From an uncultured Desulfatiglans sp. (lineage in GTDB: Bacteria; Desulfobacterota; DSM-4660; Desulfatiglandales; Desulfatiglandaceae): DNA of 64,000 bases. Where the stretch lies: the NCBI GenBank assembly GCA_900498135.1, contig LR026961.1, positions 1,518,375-1,582,374 on the forward strand, in the 5' to 3' direction. The position numbers and the translations under genes are program-made. Below the pieces are notes generated by a model that did no database searches, was not told the origin of the DNA, and saw only the letters and a program-made list of their open reading frames with translations. Of this stretch, positions 48,049 to 58,745 are shown piece after piece. How positions within the stretch are numbered: position 1 is the first letter of the stretch; every line of letters starts with the position of its first letter.

Positions 48049-49134
48049 TTGAGTACCATCTTGATCATCGACGATGACGATCAGCTGCGGAAAAGCTTCG
48101 AGAAGCTGCTTTCGGCAGAGGGTTACGATATCCGCTGCGCGGCCTCGGGAGAGGCGGGGCTCAAGCTCGTCGAGACGGAAGGCTTGGATCTGGTGGTTCT
48201 GGACATGCGCCTGCCCGGGATGAATGGGCTCGAGACCTTCGAAGCGATCCACGCGATCGAGCCGAAGCTTCCGGTCATTATCATGACGGCTTACGGAACC
48301 ACCGAAACAGCGATCGAGGCGACCAAACTGGGGGCGTTCGATTACATCCTCAAGCCGTTCGATATCCCTGACATGCTGGTGGTCATCGAAGAGGCGCTGG
48401 AAGCCGGCCGCTTCATGCGCTCCCCGGTCGATATGAATGCCGCGCCCGGGCAACAAGGGTTTCGGGAGGCCATTATCGGTCGAAGCAAACCCATGCAGGA
48501 TGTGTACAAGGCGATTGGACGGGTGTCTTCGACGGATGCAACGGTGCTTATCCGGGGTGAATCGGGCACGGGGAAGGAGTTGGTGGCGCGTGCGATCTAT
48601 CAGCACAGTCTTCGGAACGACAAACCGTTTCTCGTGATCAACTGCGTCGCGATCCCCGAGAACCTTTTGGAAAGCGAGCTGTTCGGGTACGAGCGGGGGG
48701 CCTTTACCGGTGCGTCCCACCGCCGGGTCGGAAAGATCGAGCAGGCCAACGGTGGAACGGTTTTCCTCGACGAGATCGGTGACATGCCTTCGAGCATTCA
48801 GGCCAAGATCCTGCGGCTTCTACAGGAAAAAAGCATCGAGCGGCTGGGAGGTCGCGAACCGATATCGGTCGACGTGAGGATTCTGGCGGCGACCAACCGG
48901 AACCTGGAGAAGGCCTTGGCCGAAGGCCGCTTCCGCGAAGATCTTTACTATCGATTGAAGGTCGTCACGCTGTGGCTTCCCCCCATGCGGGAGCGACGGG
49001 ACGACATCGAGCTCTTGACGCGATACTTTCTTTCGCGATATTCCCGCGAAATGGGGGTCGACAACCCGGGCATAACGGCGGAGGCATTGCAGATCCTCAG
49101 GCAATACCCCTGGCCCGGAAATGTCCGCGATTGA
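48049..49134 (+). CDS. Sigma54-dependent response regulator (NtrC type), 5' fragment ending inside the AAA+ domain
   Basis: These 361 residues contain a full receiver domain (LIIDDDDQLRKSF, phospho-Asp in VVLDMRLPG, KPFDIPDM) and most of the AAA+ domain. Walker A is GESGTGKE, the sigma54 loop is GAFTGAS, Walker B is GTVFLDEIGDM, and RILAATNRNLEKA and FREDLYYRL follow. It stops abruptly at PWPGNVRD, so the end of the AAA+ domain and the Fis-type DNA-binding helix are absent. They appear in the next frame (49169-49597) after an imperfect repeat of the last 25 codons. The start is a TTG at 48049 with GGGAG upstream. Confidence 0.9.
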   Translation: MSTILIIDDDDQLRKSFEKLLSAEGYDIRCAASGEAGLKLVETEGLDLVVLDMRLPGMNGLETFEAIHAIEPKLPVIIMTAYGTTETAIEATKLGAFDYILKPFDIPDMLVVIEEALEAGRFMRSPVDMNAAPGQQGFREAIIGRSKPMQDVYKAIGRVSSTDATVLIRGESGTGKELVARAIYQHSLRNDKPFLVINCVAIPENLLESELFGYERGAFTGASHRRVGKIEQANGGTVFLDEIGDMPSSIQAKILRLLQEKSIERLGGREPISVDVRILAATNRNLEKALAEGRFREDLYYRLKVVTLWLPPMRERRDDIELLTRYFLSRYSREMGVDNPGITAEALQILRQYPWPGNVRD

Positions 49135-49243
49135 ATATAAGGGCCTTTTGAATGGTGTTTTTTAGCTCATGGACAATCCCGGCATTACAGATGAGGCCAA
49201 AGAGATCCTCGACAATCACCCCTGGCCCGGAAATGTCCGTGAG
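49057..49243 (+). repeat. Imperfect 75-bp tandem duplication within the split regulator
   Basis: Copy 1 is 49057-49131 (encoding VDNPGITAEALQILRQYPWP...) and copy 2 is 49169-49243 (MDNPGITDEAKEILDNHPWP...). Both end in a shared ACCCCTGGCCCGGAAATGTC block. Between them are 37 bp with stop codons in the relevant frames (TGA 49132, TAG 49163). The copies are diverged (roughly four-fifths identical by eye), unlike a recent slippage duplication. Confidence 0.85.
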
Positions 49244-49597
49244 TTGGGAAACTGCATCCAGAAAACGCTCATTTTCAACAGAGGCGCCCCCATCTCACCG
49301 GAGGACATCAACCAGGCCATCAGCGGGCAGGGCAATGTCGAGGGGGGAGGCGCTTTCGCCGGCGATGAAGGGGTTCAACAATGGATCGTGAACGCGCTCA
49401 CAGCAGGGGGCAGCGACAATCTTTTTGAAAGCTGTATGGATCGCTTTGCAAGGATGTTGATCAGCGAGGCACTGCGTGTAACGGGCGGTAATCGGTCCCG
49501 TGCGGCCAAACTGCTCGGATTGTCTCGACCGACCCTTCACTCCAAGATCGAAAAATATCATCTTAAATTCGAGACATCGGTCAAGGAAACCTCCTGA
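49169..49597 (+). CDS. Sigma54 activator C-terminal fragment with Fis-type HTH (detached 3' half)
   Basis: The 142-residue frame restarts inside the AAA+ lid (MDNPGITDEAKEILDNHPWP then GNVRELGNCIQKTLIFNRG) and continues to a Fis-type helix-turn-helix (ISEALRVTGGNRSRAAKLLGLSRPTLHSKIEKY). No Shine-Dalgarno precedes the ATG. Together with the upstream frame it would rebuild one complete NtrC-type regulator except for the duplicated 25 codons. It may be a pseudogene remnant, a separately translated DNA-binding piece, or the tail of a paralogue joined by recombination. Confidence 0.75.
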   Translation: MDNPGITDEAKEILDNHPWPGNVRELGNCIQKTLIFNRGAPISPEDINQAISGQGNVEGGGAFAGDEGVQQWIVNALTAGGSDNLFESCMDRFARMLISEALRVTGGNRSRAAKLLGLSRPTLHSKIEKYHLKFETSVKETS

Positions 49598-49669: not shown

Positions 49670-50098
49670 TCACCACGCTCGCTCGGACATGATCTTTTTG
49701 ATCTTTTCTTCGGTCTGCTTTTCTACGAGGATCATCTTTTTCGCCTGGGCCTTCTGGATCTTTTCAGTGAGAGACTTGAGGTCCGCCGGCTTTTCGAGAA
49801 AATCCGTGGCGCCGAGTTTCATGGCCTCGATGCCTTTTTCGATGGTTGCATGCCCCGTCAATAAAATGATTTGGAGCTCGGGCCTTTTTTCCTTGAGGGT
49901 TTTCAAGACCTCCAGCCCATCCATCTCGGGCATCATGAGATCCAGAACGATCGCATCGAAGGATTCGGACTCGGCCTTCTGGAGGGCCTCTTTTGCTGAA
50001 AGGCTGGTGTCCACATTCATGCCGCGGGCCCGCATCCGTTCCGCCAGGCTGTCCAGAAAATCTTCCTCGTCGTCCACAAGCAAAACTTTTTCCGCCAT
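49670..50098 (-). CDS. Single-domain response regulator (receiver)
   Basis: The 142-residue protein is a receiver domain with acidic pocket DDEED, phospho-Asp in AIVLDLMMPEMDG, Thr in LLTGHA and Lys in LEKPADLKSL. A charged helical tail (TEKIQKAQAKKMILVEKQTEEKIKKIMSE) of about 30 residues replaces an output domain. It is the last gene of the minus-strand signalling cluster, 132 bp after the degenerate kinase. Confidence 0.92.
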   Translation of the reverse strand: MAEKVLLVDDEEDFLDSLAERMRARGMNVDTSLSAKEALQKAESESFDAIVLDLMMPEMDGLEVLKTLKEKRPELQIILLTGHATIEKGIEAMKLGATDFLEKPADLKSLTEKIQKAQAKKMILVEKQTEEKIKKIMSERAW

Positions 50099-50230: not shown

Positions 50231-50893
50231 TCAGGGTTGCAGCTGTTTCGGCAAAGCGACGATGAGCCTCTCGTGTTCCTTTTCTGTTATCAGCCGTGCA
50301 CCAAGGGCATCGAGCAGGATTTTTTCCTCCTCTCCGGAAAAAGTGTCCGGGACCCCATGGATAAAACCCTCAGCGCCGCTGAACTGGATGCAGACCTCTT
50401 CAGCGCCTTCCTCGGCTGCCATGCGAATCCGTTTTTGGCTGTCGGCAAAAGGCAGGAGAAAGCGGATACAGTGCCAGAGCAGGTTTTGGAGCCTGAATGG
50501 GTCGGTCAGGATCTGGATGCCGCCCTTCGCTTCAGCCGCCTCAAGCGTGACGCCCTGTCTGTCGGCGAGCCGGTGAGCCAGCAAAGACATGAAATAAAGG
50601 GTGTCTTGCAGGTCGATCTCTTTTAAAGGGACGTCCACACTGTGGGCGAAGCGGTTCATATTTTTGACGATCCCGTCTGCGCGCTGGATCTGCTTTTGAA
50701 TGCGGCCGGCTACCGTTTTCAGGCGCTCTGGATCGAGGGGAAGGCCTTTTTGGGCCATCAGGGTAAAATCCTCGATCAGACCCGCCGATTCGTTGATGAT
50801 GGCCAGTGCGTTTTTGAGTTCGTGGGATATAGAGGCCGAAATGGTTCCAAAAAACACCAACCCCGTACGAGCCCCGGTGTCGCATCGGTTCAT
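50231..50893 (-). CDS. Histidine kinase-like protein lacking a recognisable ATPase (degenerate)
   Basis: The 220-residue soluble protein keeps an H-box (ISASISHELKNALAIINESAGL) with a His, and a DHp-like helical hairpin. In the C-terminal half the N-box, G1 and G2 glycine motifs are missing; it reads FRLQNLLWHCIRFLLPFADSQKRIRMAAEEG and LITEKEHERLIVALPKQ. It could be a phosphotransfer or phosphatase module that receives phosphate from another kinase in the cluster. Its ATG overlaps the upstream receiver stop (four bases). Confidence 0.8.
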   Translation of the reverse strand: MNRCDTGARTGLVFFGTISASISHELKNALAIINESAGLIEDFTLMAQKGLPLDPERLKTVAGRIQKQIQRADGIVKNMNRFAHSVDVPLKEIDLQDTLYFMSLLAHRLADRQGVTLEAAEAKGGIQILTDPFRLQNLLWHCIRFLLPFADSQKRIRMAAEEGAEEVCIQFSGAEGFIHGVPDTFSGEEEKILLDALGARLITEKEHERLIVALPKQLQP

Positions 50894-51264
50894 GAACGCT
50901 TCCCCTCCGACTGCATCACTTCCTGCATTTTTTCTACCAGGATCTCGATCCCCACAGGTTTTACGAGGTAAAACGCTTCGCCCGCCTCGGCGGCGCCGGT
51001 CCGGAAATCCGCTTCAGAGCCGTGTCCTGTCATGAAAATGAATTTCATCTTCGGCCGCAAATCCTCGAGCTTCTTTTTCAGTTGCAGCCCGCTCATCTTG
51101 GGCAGTTTGATGTCCAGGACCGCGATGTCGTAAGAGGTCTCTCCTACAAGTGAAATGGCATCTTCGACCTTCGTCGCCCAATCAGCCTCGATTCCCCGCA
51201 TATTCAATCGTTCGGCCAGCGTGGAGACCAATTCCTCCTCATCGTCCACCAGCAGCACCCGCAT
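50890..51264 (-). CDS. Single-domain response regulator (receiver)
   Basis: The 124-residue receiver has VDDEEELVSTLAERL, phospho-Asp in AVLDIKLPKMSG, the Thr in FMTGHGSEAD and Lys in LVKPVGIEIL. There is no output domain. It overlaps the 3' end of the upstream histidine kinase by 26 bp and the downstream kinase-like gene by 4 bp, so these are one translationally linked set. Confidence 0.93.
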   Translation of the reverse strand: MRVLLVDDEEELVSTLAERLNMRGIEADWATKVEDAISLVGETSYDIAVLDIKLPKMSGLQLKKKLEDLRPKMKFIFMTGHGSEADFRTGAAEAGEAFYLVKPVGIEILVEKMQEVMQSEGKRS

Positions 51265-53002
51265 TCGCCTCTCCTCCCTTCCTTTCTTGGGTTAGGGGTA
51301 AAGTGATGGTAAAAACGGTGCCCTTGCCCAATTGGCTTTCAACGTCGATGTGACCTCCCAACTCCTGAACGAGGCCGTAGGTGATGGATAACCCGAGCCC
51401 GGTCCCCCCCTGCTTGGTTTTCGTGGAGAAGAAGGGTTCGAAAACCCGTTTCAGATCCCCTTCGGGAATGCCGCATCCGTCATCGGCTACACGTACTTTA
51501 ACATGATTTTCGTCCGCATGGGTAGCTCCAATCGAGAGGTGGCCGCCGTCGCGCATGGCGGCGAACGAATTGTTGATGAGGTTCAGCAGAATCTGCTGCA
51601 GTTTGCTCCGATCCATCTGGAGTTCGGGCAGGTCTTCTGGCACCTGCAAAGACACTACGATGGAGCGGTACTCGGTTTCTTTCCCCAAAAACCCGAGGAC
51701 CTCCAGGATAGTCTCCCGCAGTTGGAGGGGTACGATCTGGCTGTCGTCCATGTGCCGGGCGAAATTCAGCAGGCGCCGGGTGATGGTTGCGCAGCGGGCG
51801 ACGGAATTCAGGATGCCGTCCAGGAGGCGGATGAGTTTTTCGTCCTGTGCATAGCGCTGGTCAAAGGCGAAGAGATCTTTGATGAGTCCGGCCTTCTCGT
51901 TGATGATGGCAAGCGGATTGTTGATTTCGTGTGCCACCCCGGCGGCCAGACGTCCGATGGAGGCCATTTTGTTGGCGTATTCGACCTGGTGGAGAGTGGC
52001 GACCCGCCGCTGATCGGCGGTATGGAGCTGTTCGACCAGATAGGTGGCAACCCCCAGGATGACCAGGAGGATGATCAGGATGCTGACGGCCAGAAACCCG
52101 AGCAGCTGCATGTTGGCGCGGGTCCAGGATTCGATCAGCTCACGTTTGTGTTTGCAGATCATCAGGATGAATGGCGTATCCGTAATGTAGGCGTAGCCGA
52201 TGACAAGCGGGGTCCCTTCGGGGCTCTCATGCTGGACGACCCTTGTCTTGTCGGAAAATTCAGGTGTGGGGGAGGGAATTTTCTGCAGCACGTCTCCATA
52301 GAAGCGCGATGGTGTCTGCAGAATCCCCTGGTGGTTGATGAGAAAGATATCCCCCAGGCCGCCGACCTCCATATCGAAGAGCAGGCTGTTGAATTCCTGG
52401 GTGTCGATAGAGGCCCTCACCACGAAGAAGGAGCCGTTCGGCAGGGAGTGTTTGACGGCGATGATCAAGTGAGGCACTTGACGAAAACCCAGGAAGACGT
52501 CACTGACGTGCATCCCCCGCTCCACGACCTGCTGATACCAAACTTCGTGAGAATAATCGACACCTTCGAGTTCATAGGGTCCCACGTAGGTTCGCTGACC
52601 GCCCAGGGCGTCGACAACGCCAAGGTCGGTAAAGCCGCCGAAGGCCTCCTTGAGGTGTTTCAATAATTCAGCGAGACGCACGGGGTCGTGCAGGGCCTCG
52701 AAGGAGTTGTCCTGAACCACGAACTCCAGGGCGGCAGCCCGTTCGAACAGAAAAAAGGAGACGGCCCGGCGGGTGTTGGAGACCAGTCTGGCGGTACGGA
52801 ACTGGATCTCCGCCTCCGTGGCCTTCTGGGTGACCTTGTAATCGATGAAGGCCATGAAGAGGAGTGGTATGATGGTCACCCCGGCCGTCAGCAGGACGGT
52901 GAGTTTCCAGATCCGCCTGAAGTTGAACAGGTGCTTGTAAGGGCCGGCGGCGATGTCCCGGTGGTCCCAGAATTTCGGTTTGAGCGATATGGGCGCTGCC
53001 AT
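51239..53002 (-). CDS. Membrane sensor histidine kinase with extracytoplasmic Cache-type domain
   Basis: The 587-residue protein has a first span (WKLTVLLTAGVTIIPLLFMAFI, about 33-54) and a periplasmic dCache-like domain with VWYQQVVERGMHVSDVFLGFRQ and FFVVRASID. The second span is GFLAVSILIILLVILGVATYLV near 303-325, followed by a complete kinase core: H-box LAAGVAHEINNPLAIINEKAG, N-box LLNLINNSFAAM, G1 DDGCGI, G2 GGTGLGLSITYGLVQELGG. Ligand unknown; the sulfate/anion transporter upstream suggests anion or redox sensing (inference). Confidence 0.93.
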   Translation of the reverse strand: MAAPISLKPKFWDHRDIAAGPYKHLFNFRRIWKLTVLLTAGVTIIPLLFMAFIDYKVTQKATEAEIQFRTARLVSNTRRAVSFFLFERAAALEFVVQDNSFEALHDPVRLAELLKHLKEAFGGFTDLGVVDALGGQRTYVGPYELEGVDYSHEVWYQQVVERGMHVSDVFLGFRQVPHLIIAVKHSLPNGSFFVVRASIDTQEFNSLLFDMEVGGLGDIFLINHQGILQTPSRFYGDVLQKIPSPTPEFSDKTRVVQHESPEGTPLVIGYAYITDTPFILMICKHKRELIESWTRANMQLLGFLAVSILIILLVILGVATYLVEQLHTADQRRVATLHQVEYANKMASIGRLAAGVAHEINNPLAIINEKAGLIKDLFAFDQRYAQDEKLIRLLDGILNSVARCATITRRLLNFARHMDDSQIVPLQLRETILEVLGFLGKETEYRSIVVSLQVPEDLPELQMDRSKLQQILLNLINNSFAAMRDGGHLSIGATHADENHVKVRVADDGCGIPEGDLKRVFEPFFSTKTKQGGTGLGLSITYGLVQELGGHIDVESQLGKGTVFTITLPLTQERKGGEANAGAAGGR

Positions 53003-53059: not shown

Positions 53060-54298
53060 TCAGCTGCTTTGTGCGCCGTTTTGCGCCTTGCGCTTCTGGA
53101 TCTGTTCGTTGGCCTTCTTGAGGGTGTCACTCAACAGCTCGATATCCACCGGCTTTTGAAGGTAAGCGAAAGCGCCGAGATCCATGCAGACCTTCCGGTC
53201 GGCCTCGGATCCATGCCCAGTCAGGATGATCACTTCGATCTCGGGCTGCGTTTCCTTGACGCGTCGCAGCACTTCGATGCCGTCTATTCCGGGCATCTTG
53301 AGATCAAGGATCATGACCTCGGGTTCTTCTTCCTTGACCAGGGTGAGGGCCGATTCGCCGTCATAGGCTATGGCCGACCCCATATCCCGCATGAGCAGAC
53401 GCTCTGACAGGGTTTGAACGAACTCCCGCTCGTCGTCTACCAGGAGCACTTTTGCCGGGACCTGAAAGTCGTATTTCCGGTAGATATCCGCCTGGTAAAA
53501 ACCTTCGCCAACCTTGGTCTCGACGGACTCGACACCGGGTACGCGCTCCGCAATGGATCGGAGTTCTTCTTCGAGGCGGCTCAGCAGCAGGGTGTGCTTG
53601 TTGATGGTCAACGTGATGCGGCCGTCTTTCGCCCTGACGACGATGTTATGTCCCTCCTTGGCAAGCGCCACCTCGACCTCTGCCGCAAGATGGAAATCCT
53701 CGACGGCCCTCCGGGATCGGGAAGTGGTTTTTACCACATCCTTGCCGAGATTCTCCTGAACGAGCGCAACCGCCTGTCCCGAGCTGAGCTTGTCCATGGG
53801 GAGTACGATGTCGTAGAGGGAGGCATCCCAAGGATCCTTTTTGCCGAAAAGGGTATCGACCCAGAGTGCGCGCTCCTCATCCTGGCGGTGAATCAGGCGA
53901 AGAGCTTCCTTTTCATTGAGCCCTTCCGTTCTGGCGGCGTCTTCCAGCCGAAACCGCATTTCGGCGATGAGACAGATCCGCAGCGCATGCGCGATATGCG
54001 GTCCGACAAGCAGGCTTGAAAAACCGCTGATCAGCAGATTGTCACGCTCGAGGATCTGCGCCAGGGCCAGGCGGAGCCAGGCGATGGATCGTTCCTTTTC
54101 GTGGGTGAATTTGTTGAAGATCGATGTCTTTACGCTGAAGGTCTTGGACAGCTTGCCTTCGTCCATACCCGAGATCCGGCTGGCGCCTGCGACCACATCG
54201 GCGTCGGTGATGTGCTCCGCCCCGGTTGTCTCGAGCAGACCTTGCAACACAGCGGCTTCATGACAAAAGGTCCCGTTGAAAACAGTGATGATGGACAT
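53060..54298 (-). CDS. Cytidylate-kinase-like, BON and receiver domain fusion
   Basis: The 412-residue protein has three parts. Residues 1-185 resemble the cytidylate-kinase-2 family (RLEDAARTEGLNEKEALRLIHRQDEERALWVDTLFGK...YDIVLPMDKLS), but its P-loop region reads FNGTFCHEAAV, without the usual GSGG and Lys. Residues about 195-275 look like a BON domain (VEVALAKEGHNIVVRAKDGRITLTI). Residues about 285-400 form a receiver (VDDEREFVQTL, phospho-Asp MILDLKMPG, LTGHGSEAD, QKPVDIEL). I chose ATG 54298, with GGGGGG upstream. It lies between SulP and the histidine kinase genes. Confidence 0.82.
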   Translation of the reverse strand: MSIITVFNGTFCHEAAVLQGLLETTGAEHITDADVVAGASRISGMDEGKLSKTFSVKTSIFNKFTHEKERSIAWLRLALAQILERDNLLISGFSSLLVGPHIAHALRICLIAEMRFRLEDAARTEGLNEKEALRLIHRQDEERALWVDTLFGKKDPWDASLYDIVLPMDKLSSGQAVALVQENLGKDVVKTTSRSRRAVEDFHLAAEVEVALAKEGHNIVVRAKDGRITLTINKHTLLLSRLEEELRSIAERVPGVESVETKVGEGFYQADIYRKYDFQVPAKVLLVDDEREFVQTLSERLLMRDMGSAIAYDGESALTLVKEEEPEVMILDLKMPGIDGIEVLRRVKETQPEIEVIILTGHGSEADRKVCMDLGAFAYLQKPVDIELLSDTLKKANEQIQKRKAQNGAQSS

Positions 54299-54549: not shown

Positions 54550-56673
54550 CTACGTCAGACGGCACACCGTCAGGAGCGGGCAGGCTTCCTCCTGCCCATC
54601 GCGGTGCGCCTGCGTATAGTTTGCCTGAATCGCCCGTTCCATGGTCGGAAATAGATGATCTTCCCCGATCTTTTCCAGAAAATGGGTCCGCTTCAGAACC
54701 TTCATGACCGATTCATTGACCCCGCTCAGCGAAATATCCACGCCAGCGCTCCTGACCCGGTCAACGAGCAGAGAGAGGGTTTCCTCCCCCGAGGCGTCGA
54801 TGTCGTTGATCCCGTTGGAGACGATAACGATATGTTTGAGATGTTTCATCTCACGCATCCGCTCCATGATCTTGTCTTCGAGATAACTGGCGTTGGCGAA
54901 GAAGAGCGGTCCATCGAACCGGATCAAGGTCATGTATTTGCACTCCTTCAGCCCGAAGGTCAGACAATCGCGCAGGGATTGGTCTTCGTGGCGGGAAAGG
55001 GCGGCGACCTTGGGGCGCATGCTTTTGTAAAGAAACACCAGCAGGGACAGGACCACCCCGACCATGATGCCTCGGTCGAGGTGCGGCGCGAATGCCAGGG
55101 TGCAGACAAACGAAATGATGGAGATCAGCCCGTCGTACCACTGGGCCTCCCAGGCGTGGATGAAGCCGGTTGCGTTGATGAGCCCGATCACGGCCATCAT
55201 GATGACGGCTGCCAGCACGGATTGGGGTAGGTGATAGAGAAGGGGGGTGAAGAATAGCAGTACGATCACCACGGCCAGGCTGGTGAAGACGCTGGAGAGG
55301 CCGGTTTGCGCTCCGGATTGCAGATTGACCGCCGAGCGCGAAAACGAACCGGAGGTGGGATAACTTCGACTCATGGCGCCGAGGACATTGGCAAGGCCCT
55401 GACCGATCAGCTCCTGGTTGGGATCCAGGCGTTGCCCGGTCTTGGCTGCCATGGCCTTGGCGATGGAGATCGCCTCCATGAAACCCAGGAGCGAGATGAT
55501 CGCAGCGTAGGGAAGAAGATGGAGGAGGACCTTCCAGTCGAGCGTCGGGATGCTGAAGGCCGGGAGTCCTGCGGGGATGGCGCCTACGACGGCTCCTCCC
55601 CCCATCATGGGCAGGTTCTCTTCATCCAGCGGTTTGTTGCCGACCCTTATGCGCCAGGTTCGTCCGTCGCTTTCGGCGCCGGGGGGCACCTGATCGCGGA
55701 TGTAAAAGCGAAGGCCGCCGCCTTCCTCGATGCCGGCAAAGAGCATGGAACGGAGCTGTTCACGAACCTCCTGCGATTCCTTCTTGAGTTGAGCCATTTC
55801 GATGCTCAGAATATTCACGGCATGTTCCCGCTCGAGGATGCTGACCATGTCACGGCCTTGCTGCACCTCCTCGAGGGCCTTGTAGGCCTGGGCGCGTCTT
55901 TCCGCGATGAGGGGGATGGCCTCGACCGTCCGGTTGAAGCGCATGATGAGCGCCCTGGCCTCCGGACTTGAGATGGCATCCACAGGGACCTTGGCGTCAT
56001 GCTGAAACCCCGTGGCCCATGCAATCACGGTGGTGACCGCGACGGCGACCAGGACGTTCGGGATCTTGGGCGAGATGCGCTTGAGGCCGACCATGATGGC
56101 GAAGGCGAAAGCGCCCATGATGAAAGTCGGCCAGTGTGTGTAGTGAAGGGCGGACCGGATGACCGCGAAGATGGTTTCATAGTGATGGGCGGCGCTGTCC
56201 ACATACACGCCGAACATCTTGGAGAGCTGGGAGGAGGCGATGATGATCGCGGCCGCATTCGTAAAACCGTTCACGACAGGGTGCGAGAGGAAATTCACCA
56301 CCAGCCCGAGTTTCAGGACGCCCAACGAAAACTGGAAGGCCCCCACCATGAGGGCCAGGAGTACGGCGTAGGCGATATAACCCGGGCTTCCAGCCGTGGC
56401 CAGCGGTTCCAGAGAGGCAGCGGTCATCAGGGAGACCACGGCGACGGGGCCTGTGGCGAGCTGCCGGCTGGAGCCGAAAAGCGCTGCTATCATGGGGGGA
56501 AGAAACGAGGCATAAAGACCGTAATAGGCGGGAAGTCCCGCCAGTTGGGCATACGCCATGGACTGAGGGATCAGAACGAGCGCGACGGTCAAGCCGGAGA
56601 TTGCATCGAGTCGAAAACTGCTCCAGTTGTATTCCCTGAACCACACGATGAAAGGAAAAGTTCTGCGCAACAT
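54550..56673 (-). CDS. SulP/SLC26-family anion transporter with STAS domain and an extra insert
   Basis: The 707-residue protein has the SulP start DAISGLTVALVLIPQSMAYAQLAGLPAYYGLY, then NGFTNAAAIIIASSQL, RSYPTSGSFSRSAVN and a C-terminal STAS domain (residues about 590-690, with ETLSLLVDRVRSAGVDISLSGV). An additional segment of about 130 residues (about 225-358), including a predicted coiled coil (AQAYKALEEV...LKKESQEVREQLRSML), interrupts the membrane domain before GAIPAGLPAF. Typical members lack it. Substrates in the family are sulfate, bicarbonate or other anions. The gene follows tetR by 12 bp. Confidence 0.92.
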   Translation of the reverse strand: MLRRTFPFIVWFREYNWSSFRLDAISGLTVALVLIPQSMAYAQLAGLPAYYGLYASFLPPMIAALFGSSRQLATGPVAVVSLMTAASLEPLATAGSPGYIAYAVLLALMVGAFQFSLGVLKLGLVVNFLSHPVVNGFTNAAAIIIASSQLSKMFGVYVDSAAHHYETIFAVIRSALHYTHWPTFIMGAFAFAIMVGLKRISPKIPNVLVAVAVTTVIAWATGFQHDAKVPVDAISSPEARALIMRFNRTVEAIPLIAERRAQAYKALEEVQQGRDMVSILEREHAVNILSIEMAQLKKESQEVREQLRSMLFAGIEEGGGLRFYIRDQVPPGAESDGRTWRIRVGNKPLDEENLPMMGGGAVVGAIPAGLPAFSIPTLDWKVLLHLLPYAAIISLLGFMEAISIAKAMAAKTGQRLDPNQELIGQGLANVLGAMSRSYPTSGSFSRSAVNLQSGAQTGLSSVFTSLAVVIVLLFFTPLLYHLPQSVLAAVIMMAVIGLINATGFIHAWEAQWYDGLISIISFVCTLAFAPHLDRGIMVGVVLSLLVFLYKSMRPKVAALSRHEDQSLRDCLTFGLKECKYMTLIRFDGPLFFANASYLEDKIMERMREMKHLKHIVIVSNGINDIDASGEETLSLLVDRVRSAGVDISLSGVNESVMKVLKRTHFLEKIGEDHLFPTMERAIQANYTQAHRDGQEEACPLLTVCRLT

Positions 56674-56685
56674 GGCCTCACCTGC

Positions 56686-57276
56686 TTAAAAAGAAGGGTT
56701 CCGAAGCATTCGGCGGACTGCCGAGAGCAGTTCACTGTGGAGGGCAGCCGCGTCGTAGAGATTGTAGTCCCGAAAGCGGACCAGACCGTCGACCATGGTC
56801 AAAACGATCAGGGCGTTTTTTCGAGCCGGCATGGGCGCGATACTTCCGTCTTTCTGCCCCAGTTCGACAGCCTGCTCGAAGATGTCCAGGAGACAATTGA
56901 AGATATCCTCCAGATAACCACGGCAGACAGGGTTCACCTCCGCGAGCTTATAGGGGTAATGCCTGTGGAGGAGGAGAAAGCGCTCATCCATCTTTGCAGC
57001 GAGATAGAGATAAAAAGAGATGGCCTCTTCCATCATTTGAAGGCCGGATAGCGGCTCACTCTCTTTCCGGTAGGCGTTGAACTCCCGCAGGATGTCCTCC
57101 TTGACTTCCTGCAGGATCGCCAGGAAAAGATCCTCCTTGCTCTTGAAATGATAGAAGATCGTTCCTTCGGCGACCCCCGTCGCTCGGGCGATGTCTGCGA
57201 TCGAGGTTTCCTTGAACCCGTGTTCCGAAAATAGTTTCGCAGCGGTGTTCAAAATGGCGTCCCGTTTTTTGACCAT
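56686..57276 (-). CDS. TetR-family transcriptional regulator
   Basis: The 196-residue protein has the TetR HTH: RDAILNTAAKLFSEHGFKETSIADIARATGVAEGTIFYHFKSKEDLF (residues 5-52), followed by an all-helical ligand domain. It heads the operon that runs into SulP and perhaps the signalling genes. A palindrome overlapping its own promoter (57299-57316) is a probable operator, indicating autorepression. Confidence 0.93.
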   Translation of the reverse strand: MVKKRDAILNTAAKLFSEHGFKETSIADIARATGVAEGTIFYHFKSKEDLFLAILQEVKEDILREFNAYRKESEPLSGLQMMEEAISFYLYLAAKMDERFLLLHRHYPYKLAEVNPVCRGYLEDIFNCLLDIFEQAVELGQKDGSIAPMPARKNALIVLTMVDGLVRFRDYNLYDAAALHSELLSAVRRMLRNPSF

Positions 57277-58220: not shown

Positions 58221-58745
58221 ATGGCCGATGAGAAACCCCGAGGAGAAAAGGATATCCGGATATGGAAGTTCGTTGTGACCTATGTGCTTTTGATGGGGCT
58301 TTTCTTGCTGCTGATCGGCCTTGAACCGGTCAAGAAAATTTTGGACATCAATGGTGTCTACACGGAGATGATCATCTATCTCACGGCCTGGATACTCGAG
58401 CCCTTCAATATTGTGCAAGGGATCAGCGGTTCCGTGATCAACGTGAAGGGTCTGACGATGGATGTGCGCTTCGGATGCAACGGCCTGGAGGCTTTTCTGA
58501 TCTACACCGTTGCGATCCTTGCCTTCCCGACGAAGGTGAAAAAAAAGATCGTGGGCATTGTCGGAGGTTTTTTCGTTCTGCAGATTTTGAACGTTCTACG
58601 GATAGCGGGATTGGGATTGAGTGGCGTCTATCTGAAAAAATATTTCGAATATCTGCATATCTATGTTGCTCAAGGCATCATGATCGCGGTTGCTCTGGTG
58701 CTCTTTCTGTTCTGGCTGAATTACGCTACCGGGAAATCGGACTAA
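58221..58745 (+). CDS. xrtH: Exosortase H (IPTLxxWG-CTERM sorting enzyme type)
   Basis: The 174-residue inner-membrane protein is of the small exosortase type. The three catalytic residues of exosortases are visible: Cys in VRFGCNGLEAFLIY, Arg in LNVLRIAGL, and His in EYLHIYVAQG. In this family the enzyme cleaves a C-terminal sorting signal of exported proteins and passes them to an outer destination. Assignment to the H class is from memory of its short form and motif spacing. No target with an IPTL-type tail was noticed in the window. Confidence 0.85.
   Translation: MADEKPRGEKDIRIWKFVVTYVLLMGLFLLLIGLEPVKKILDINGVYTEMIIYLTAWILEPFNIVQGISGSVINVKGLTMDVRFGCNGLEAFLIYTVAILAFPTKVKKKIVGIVGGFFVLQILNVLRIAGLGLSGVYLKKYFEYLHIYVAQGIMIAVALVLFLFWLNYATGKSD

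Follow-up and report, generated by a model that had tools for sequence, protein, structure and literature searches.

The CKRR gene and its surroundings

The window analysed is a stretch of 64,000 nucleotides from an uncultured Desulfatiglans sp. (contig LR026961.1), and the gene considered here lies on its minus strand at 53060..54298. It codes for a 412-residue response regulator, recognised by its open reading frame, Pfam matches and structure prediction, in which a cytidylate-kinase-like region is followed by a BON-like domain and a receiver (CKRR). The reading frame starts with ATG, and an in-frame GTG upstream would give a protein of 426 residues. CKRR belongs to a set of minus-strand genes in the order TetR, SulP, CKRR, sensor kinase, REC124, short HisKA protein and REC142, which are separated by short gaps or overlaps except for 251 bp between SulP and CKRR and 132 bp ahead of REC142.

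The first gene of this cassette (56686..57276, minus strand) codes for a TetR-family regulator and lies 12 bp from the SulP gene (54550..56673, minus strand), the only PF00916 gene found in the genome. The SulP permease (707 aa) contains the Sulfate_transp and STAS domains by Pfam, scores 449.7 bits against TIGR00815 (cut-off 380.45) and carries AYYGLY at residue 49, the xxYGLY motif being present in 63 of 65 SulPs. A charged insert of about 130 residues (residues ~228-359) separates both Pfam halves of the protein. It was considered as a trait specific to the cassette, an idea that was dropped because SulPs of about 42% identity from genomes lacking CKRR (G214, G167 and G071) are no shorter (713-720 aa) and can be aligned from end to end.

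Downstream of CKRR, and on the same strand, lie a membrane sensor histidine kinase with a dCache-like region and conserved H358, N and G boxes (51239..53002), a single-domain receiver whose gene overlaps that of the kinase (REC124, 50890..51264), a short HisKA protein (50231..50893) and a second single-domain receiver, found by Pfam, with a C-terminal extension (REC142, 49670..50098). The earlier note had placed CKRR between SulP and a Cache-domain kinase; the placement, with all three genes on one strand, stands, but the Cache match of the kinase reaches only 26.9 bits against a cut-off of 45. The short HisKA protein contains an invariant histidine (H24, in 53 of 53 sequences) without conserved N and G boxes or other recognisable ATPase boxes, and its sequence makes it a possible candidate for a phosphotransferase of the Spo0B/ChpT type. 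The combination of a sensor kinase that keeps its boxes with a HisKA protein that keeps its histidine and lacks those of the ATPase suggests a phosphorelay.

A search of the window with Rfam yielded two tRNAs only, and promoter matches in the region were at chance level. Beyond REC142, on the plus strand (48049-49597), there is a split sigma-54 activator, composed of a REC-AAA ORF and a second ORF with the AAA lid and a Fis-type HTH. The stop of the first ORF lies at 49134, and its final 71 nt recur in the second ORF with 75% identity (common core CCCCTGGCCCGGAAATGTCCG), as if two paralogous genes had recombined. On the other side of the cassette, an exosortase/EpsH-family membrane protein is encoded at 58221-58745 (plus strand, 33.6 bits).

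Domain organisation of CKRR

A chance ORF is ruled out, since 81 full-length relatives align with CKRR and are conserved. Pfam matched Cytidylate_kin2 and Response_reg in all 55 aligned homologues, and it found no DNA-binding domain in the window protein or in these 55 sequences. No homologues were found on plasmids or in viral contigs. AlphaFold2 modelled the full protein, from the 55-sequence alignment, with a mean pLDDT of 90.7 and a pTM of 0.86. Only receivers were listed by Foldseek and VIA when this full model was used, and for this reason the N-terminal part was modelled separately (pLDDT 92.4 for the first 270 residues alone).

Residues 1-190 (53729..54298, minus strand) are predicted to adopt an NMP-kinase fold of the cytidylate kinase type, which is also indicated by Foldseek, by residue conservation and by the Pfam match to Cytidylate_kin2 (PF13189; residues 33-169, E 3.4e-13, 50.6 bits against a cut-off of 28). 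In VIA comparisons the N-terminal model superimposed on 3hdt with Z 19.8 (rmsd 2.1, 164 aligned) and on 3fdi with Z 19.3 (rmsd 2.0, 159 aligned), two structures whose sequences also match the Cytidylate_kin2 profile, and residues 1-190 gave Z 12-14 with CMP kinases. This comparison with cytidylate kinase, suggested in the earlier note, therefore returned a kinase fold and not the outcome in which kinase and BON folds are both missing.

The middle region (residues 193-263; 53510..53722, minus strand) is best termed BON-like, its predicted alpha-beta-beta-alpha-beta order being that of BON domains. The window protein itself stays below the Pfam threshold (PF04972; 13 bits against 27, E 0.13), BON was detected at E<0.05 in 4 of 55 homologues, and hhalign gave a weak match between this region and a small BON alignment, whereas a stand-alone CK-BON homologue exceeds the Pfam cut-off with 35.3 bits. 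For the window protein the BON label is weaker than the earlier note had it, although the predicted secondary structure fits.

The receiver (residues 282-400; 53099..53455, minus strand) is supported by Pfam (Response_reg, residues 284-393, E 3.9e-27), by structural matches, RssB being among its relatives, and by conservation. D288, D289 and D332 are present in 81 of 81 homologues, and T360 and K382 in all 80 sequences that cover those positions, so that the acidic pair, the phospho-accepting aspartate, the threonine and the lysine are all kept and the receiver is intact, as had been proposed. A kinase-like fold, a BON-like middle and an intact receiver are therefore really joined in one polypeptide.

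Loss of the nucleotide kinase site

The P-loop had been described as degenerate, and this proved correct: FNGTFCHEAA is present in the window protein, its Walker A (GTFCHEAA) departs from the G-x4-G-K/R pattern of active NMP kinases, and an intact G-x4-G-[KR] is found in none of the 81 SulP-type copies. At the position of the Walker A lysine these 81 sequences mostly contain Asp or Glu, and the lysine occurs only in L045 and L073, where the second glycine is missing from its position. C12 is kept in 79 of 81. Cys stands in for the pocket arginine of active kinases in all but one of the 81 homologues (80 of 81), and Ala or Ser for the second LID arginine in 70 of 81. The distant, DASS-linked relative L137 still carries a G-x4-G-R P-loop. 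In the tree, the REC-fused forms compose one clade (support 98/100) on a long stem, which is consistent with a single fusion followed by loss of catalysis.

An active CMP kinase as the output of CKRR was accordingly rejected, the catalytic motifs being lost. The earlier note had left room for a response regulator whose output is nucleotide phosphorylation, and this is unlikely, as Walker A and the pocket arginine are gone in essentially all SulP-linked members and the LID arginine in most of them. A variant of this idea, in which the nucleotide site is catalytic in some unusual manner and CKRR signals by means of a phosphorylated nucleotide, could draw on the fold, predicted with high confidence, and on the conserved FNKFTHEK motif (residues 61-68, nearly invariant among the 81 homologues) and R117 (80 of 81), which suggest a functional pocket; set against the disappearance of the P-loop and of the pocket and LID arginines, it is very improbable and the least likely of the rivals discussed here. 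The near-invariance of FNKFTHEK indicates, in turn, that the kinase-like domain is selected for something beyond ordinary catalysis.

Conservation of the cassette and its link to sulfate permeases

The cassette was examined in 80 loci from public genomes, each partner being scored only where the flank suffices. SulP lies immediately upstream of CKRR in 75 of 79 loci and the sensor kinase downstream in 66 of 72, while REC124 was found in 50 of 64 and REC142 in 42 of 53. The short HisKA protein is present in 51 of 58 and the TetR gene in 49 of 63. Co-occurrence with SulP and kinase genes, the prediction on which the functional proposal of the earlier note depended, is hence well borne out. The cassette recurs on a contig labelled Ectothiorhodospiraceae (Gammaproteobacteria; L105), and the SulP and CKRR pair on contigs labelled Nitrospira and Nitrospirae (L062 and L081). 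Solidesulfovibrio alcoholivorans DSM 5433 (L104) and Desulfobacter vibrioformis DSM 8776 (L073) are among the cultured bacteria that possess it.

In a survey of 297 genomes of the phylum, CKRR was found in 35, belonging to 16 families. dsrA scored over its cut-off in 34 of these 35 genomes, compared with 144 of all 297 genomes surveyed (Fisher p 5e-11, without correction for phylogeny), an association that is partly due to shared descent. The window genome carries dsrA and one SulP. A close orthologue of this SulP is present in 30 of the 297 genomes, and every one of the 30 contains CKRR; the two genes are adjacent on one contig in 26 cases, split at contig ends in 3 and apart in one (G140).

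In G140 both CKRR copies lie beside DASS permeases (Na_sulph_symp). At its loci (L133, L134 and L138) each copy also adjoins an NtrC-type activator, and the SulP gene is alone with a TetR gene. Loci without SulP contain a TSUP/TauE permease (L096, L128 and L129; in G234 and G273 the cassette without SulP is followed by a TauE/TSUP permease) or a permease of the DASS/Na_sulph_symp or CitMHS type (L133, L134 and L137). At L137:184-5080, the divergent regulator with the G-x4-G-R loop is adjoined by a CBS protein, a PPDK_N/PEP-utilizer protein and a DASS-type permease. Related CK-BON and CK2 proteins lacking a receiver, which have REC and HK genes of their own, likewise neighbour DASS permeases. 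The window genome contains a second cassette (L124, G000:C1:3086000-3094000), which consists of a DASS-type permease with TrkA_C, a receiver-less CK2 protein, a REC and an HK, with an NtrC-type regulator upstream.

Since CKRR-type regulators stand next to DASS and TSUP permeases as well, the control of anion uptake that the earlier note had deduced from the SulP neighbour can be narrowed to sulfate-type permeases, mainly of sulfate reducers. SulP-type carriers move several anions, so that sulfate is only a putative substrate. CKRR genes adjoin sulfate-type transporters across many sulfate reducers and probably belong to an undescribed system for the control of sulfate uptake.

A general phosphorelay for energy or envelope stress, with the permease as a passenger or as one of several targets, would fit the loci that lie apart from such genes: no sulfate-type permease was seen nearby at L054, L059, L101, L130, L131 and L132, nor any permease at all at L054, L059, L101, L131 and L132. 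Single-domain receivers could, moreover, act elsewhere. The permease-less loci make a wider role of CKRR possible and count against exclusivity. This explanation is nevertheless improbable, given that SulP is directly upstream in nearly all loci, that CKRR accompanies the SulP orthologue in every genome that has it and that three different permease families recur beside CKRR.

A possible mode of action

The reading that we favour, with modest confidence, is that CKRR is a phosphorelay-driven regulator with a non-DNA-binding output that regulates the sulfate permeases of sulfate reducers, and that its kinase-like domain binds a ligand or a partner and is not a nucleotide kinase. The membrane kinase would sense a signal from outside or from the envelope and phosphorylate the receivers of the cassette, if transfer runs in that direction, with the short HisKA protein probably relaying phosphate among them. 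Phosphorylation of D332 would alter the binding of a ligand or partner by the pseudo-NMP-kinase/BON-like output. The effect would most likely be post-translational, CKRR gating or sequestering its cognate permease through a presumed contact, of either sign, which in the case of SulP might involve the STAS domain. An adenylate-type nucleotide (AMP, ADP or APS are conceivable ligands) could be a second input. On the most economical reading, CKRR acts on the permease as a binding protein under the control of phosphorylation, and its pseudo-kinase pocket may read an adenylate. The stricter version, that the pseudo-NMP-kinase output senses an adenylate such as APS or AMP and that three families of sulfate permeases are gated directly by it in sulfate-respiring bacteria, is a rather unlikely proposal as it stands; if true, an extracellular signal and the intracellular activation state would meet in one protein.

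Control could instead be exerted on expression, the pseudo-kinase/BON output titrating or contacting a regulator, either TetR or some other, while the cassette adjusts transcription of the permease genes. The position of TetR as first gene of the cassette in most loci with enough flank and its persistence with CKRR in the SulP-less L096, L101, L128 and L129 agree with this, as do the SulP and DASS genes of Desulfobacterium autotrophicum, whose transcription shifts with sulfate (PMC5840216). TetR is, however, absent from some SulP-CKRR cassettes, such as L062, L081 and L105, and CKRR has no DNA-binding domain by Pfam. In addition, TetR proteins usually respond to small ligands. Control of expression is thus a tentative alternative that we regard as unlikely, and action of CKRR on the permease itself is preferred.

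Dissimilatory sulfate reduction begins with the uptake of sulfate. A conserved regulator-permease cassette offers a testable candidate for both the sulfate carrier and its regulator, and CKRR could serve as a marker that picks likely sulfate permeases out of many paralogues.

Relation to known systems

According to a comparative survey, the proteins responsible for sulfate uptake in sulfate reducers are not experimentally established; Marietou et al. discuss SulP, DASS, CysP and CysZ (TSUP) as putative sulfate carriers of these bacteria, and the two-component neighbours of such carriers go unmentioned there (PMC5840216). Their SulP group Ci comprises proteins of about 710 aa within clade C of putative sulfate transporters (PMC5840216), and the window SulP resembles it in length, insertion and the P-to-A change in PXYGLY. 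In D. autotrophicum, HRM2_40360 (SulP) and HRM2_40290 (DASS) show high expression when sulfate is abundant (PMC5840216), and with seven gene numbers between them the locus may be laid out much like L120. No paper on a dedicated sulfate-uptake regulator of sulfate reducers was found in the literature searched, and no description of cytidylate kinase-like response regulators was found in the open literature, subscription papers being mostly outside the search. A decayed nucleotide kinase is an output type absent from this literature, and while the parts of CKRR are known folds, their combination and the link to sulfate permeases appear to be undescribed.

Three groups of proteins are closest to CKRR. 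The PF13189 structures 3hdt and 3fdi (titled putative kinase and uncharacterized protein) share fold and sequence with residues 33-169; CKRR differs in the destroyed Walker A, in the change of the pocket Arg to Cys and in its fusion to a BON-like domain and a receiver. Stand-alone CK-BON proteins of the same phylum (~280 aa, several of them beside DASS) show the same order of CK and BON-like domains with ~26-31% identity, but they contain a GSYSKGKE-type P-loop in 8 of 9 cases, mostly keep ERRKW and nearly all arginines, have no receiver and are separate from CKRR in the tree. Finally, response regulators with a non-DNA-binding output, such as RssB, have in common with CKRR an intact phospho-receiver fold, whereas in CKRR this receiver is C-terminal and the output is composed of an NMP-kinase-like pseudoenzyme and a BON-like domain.
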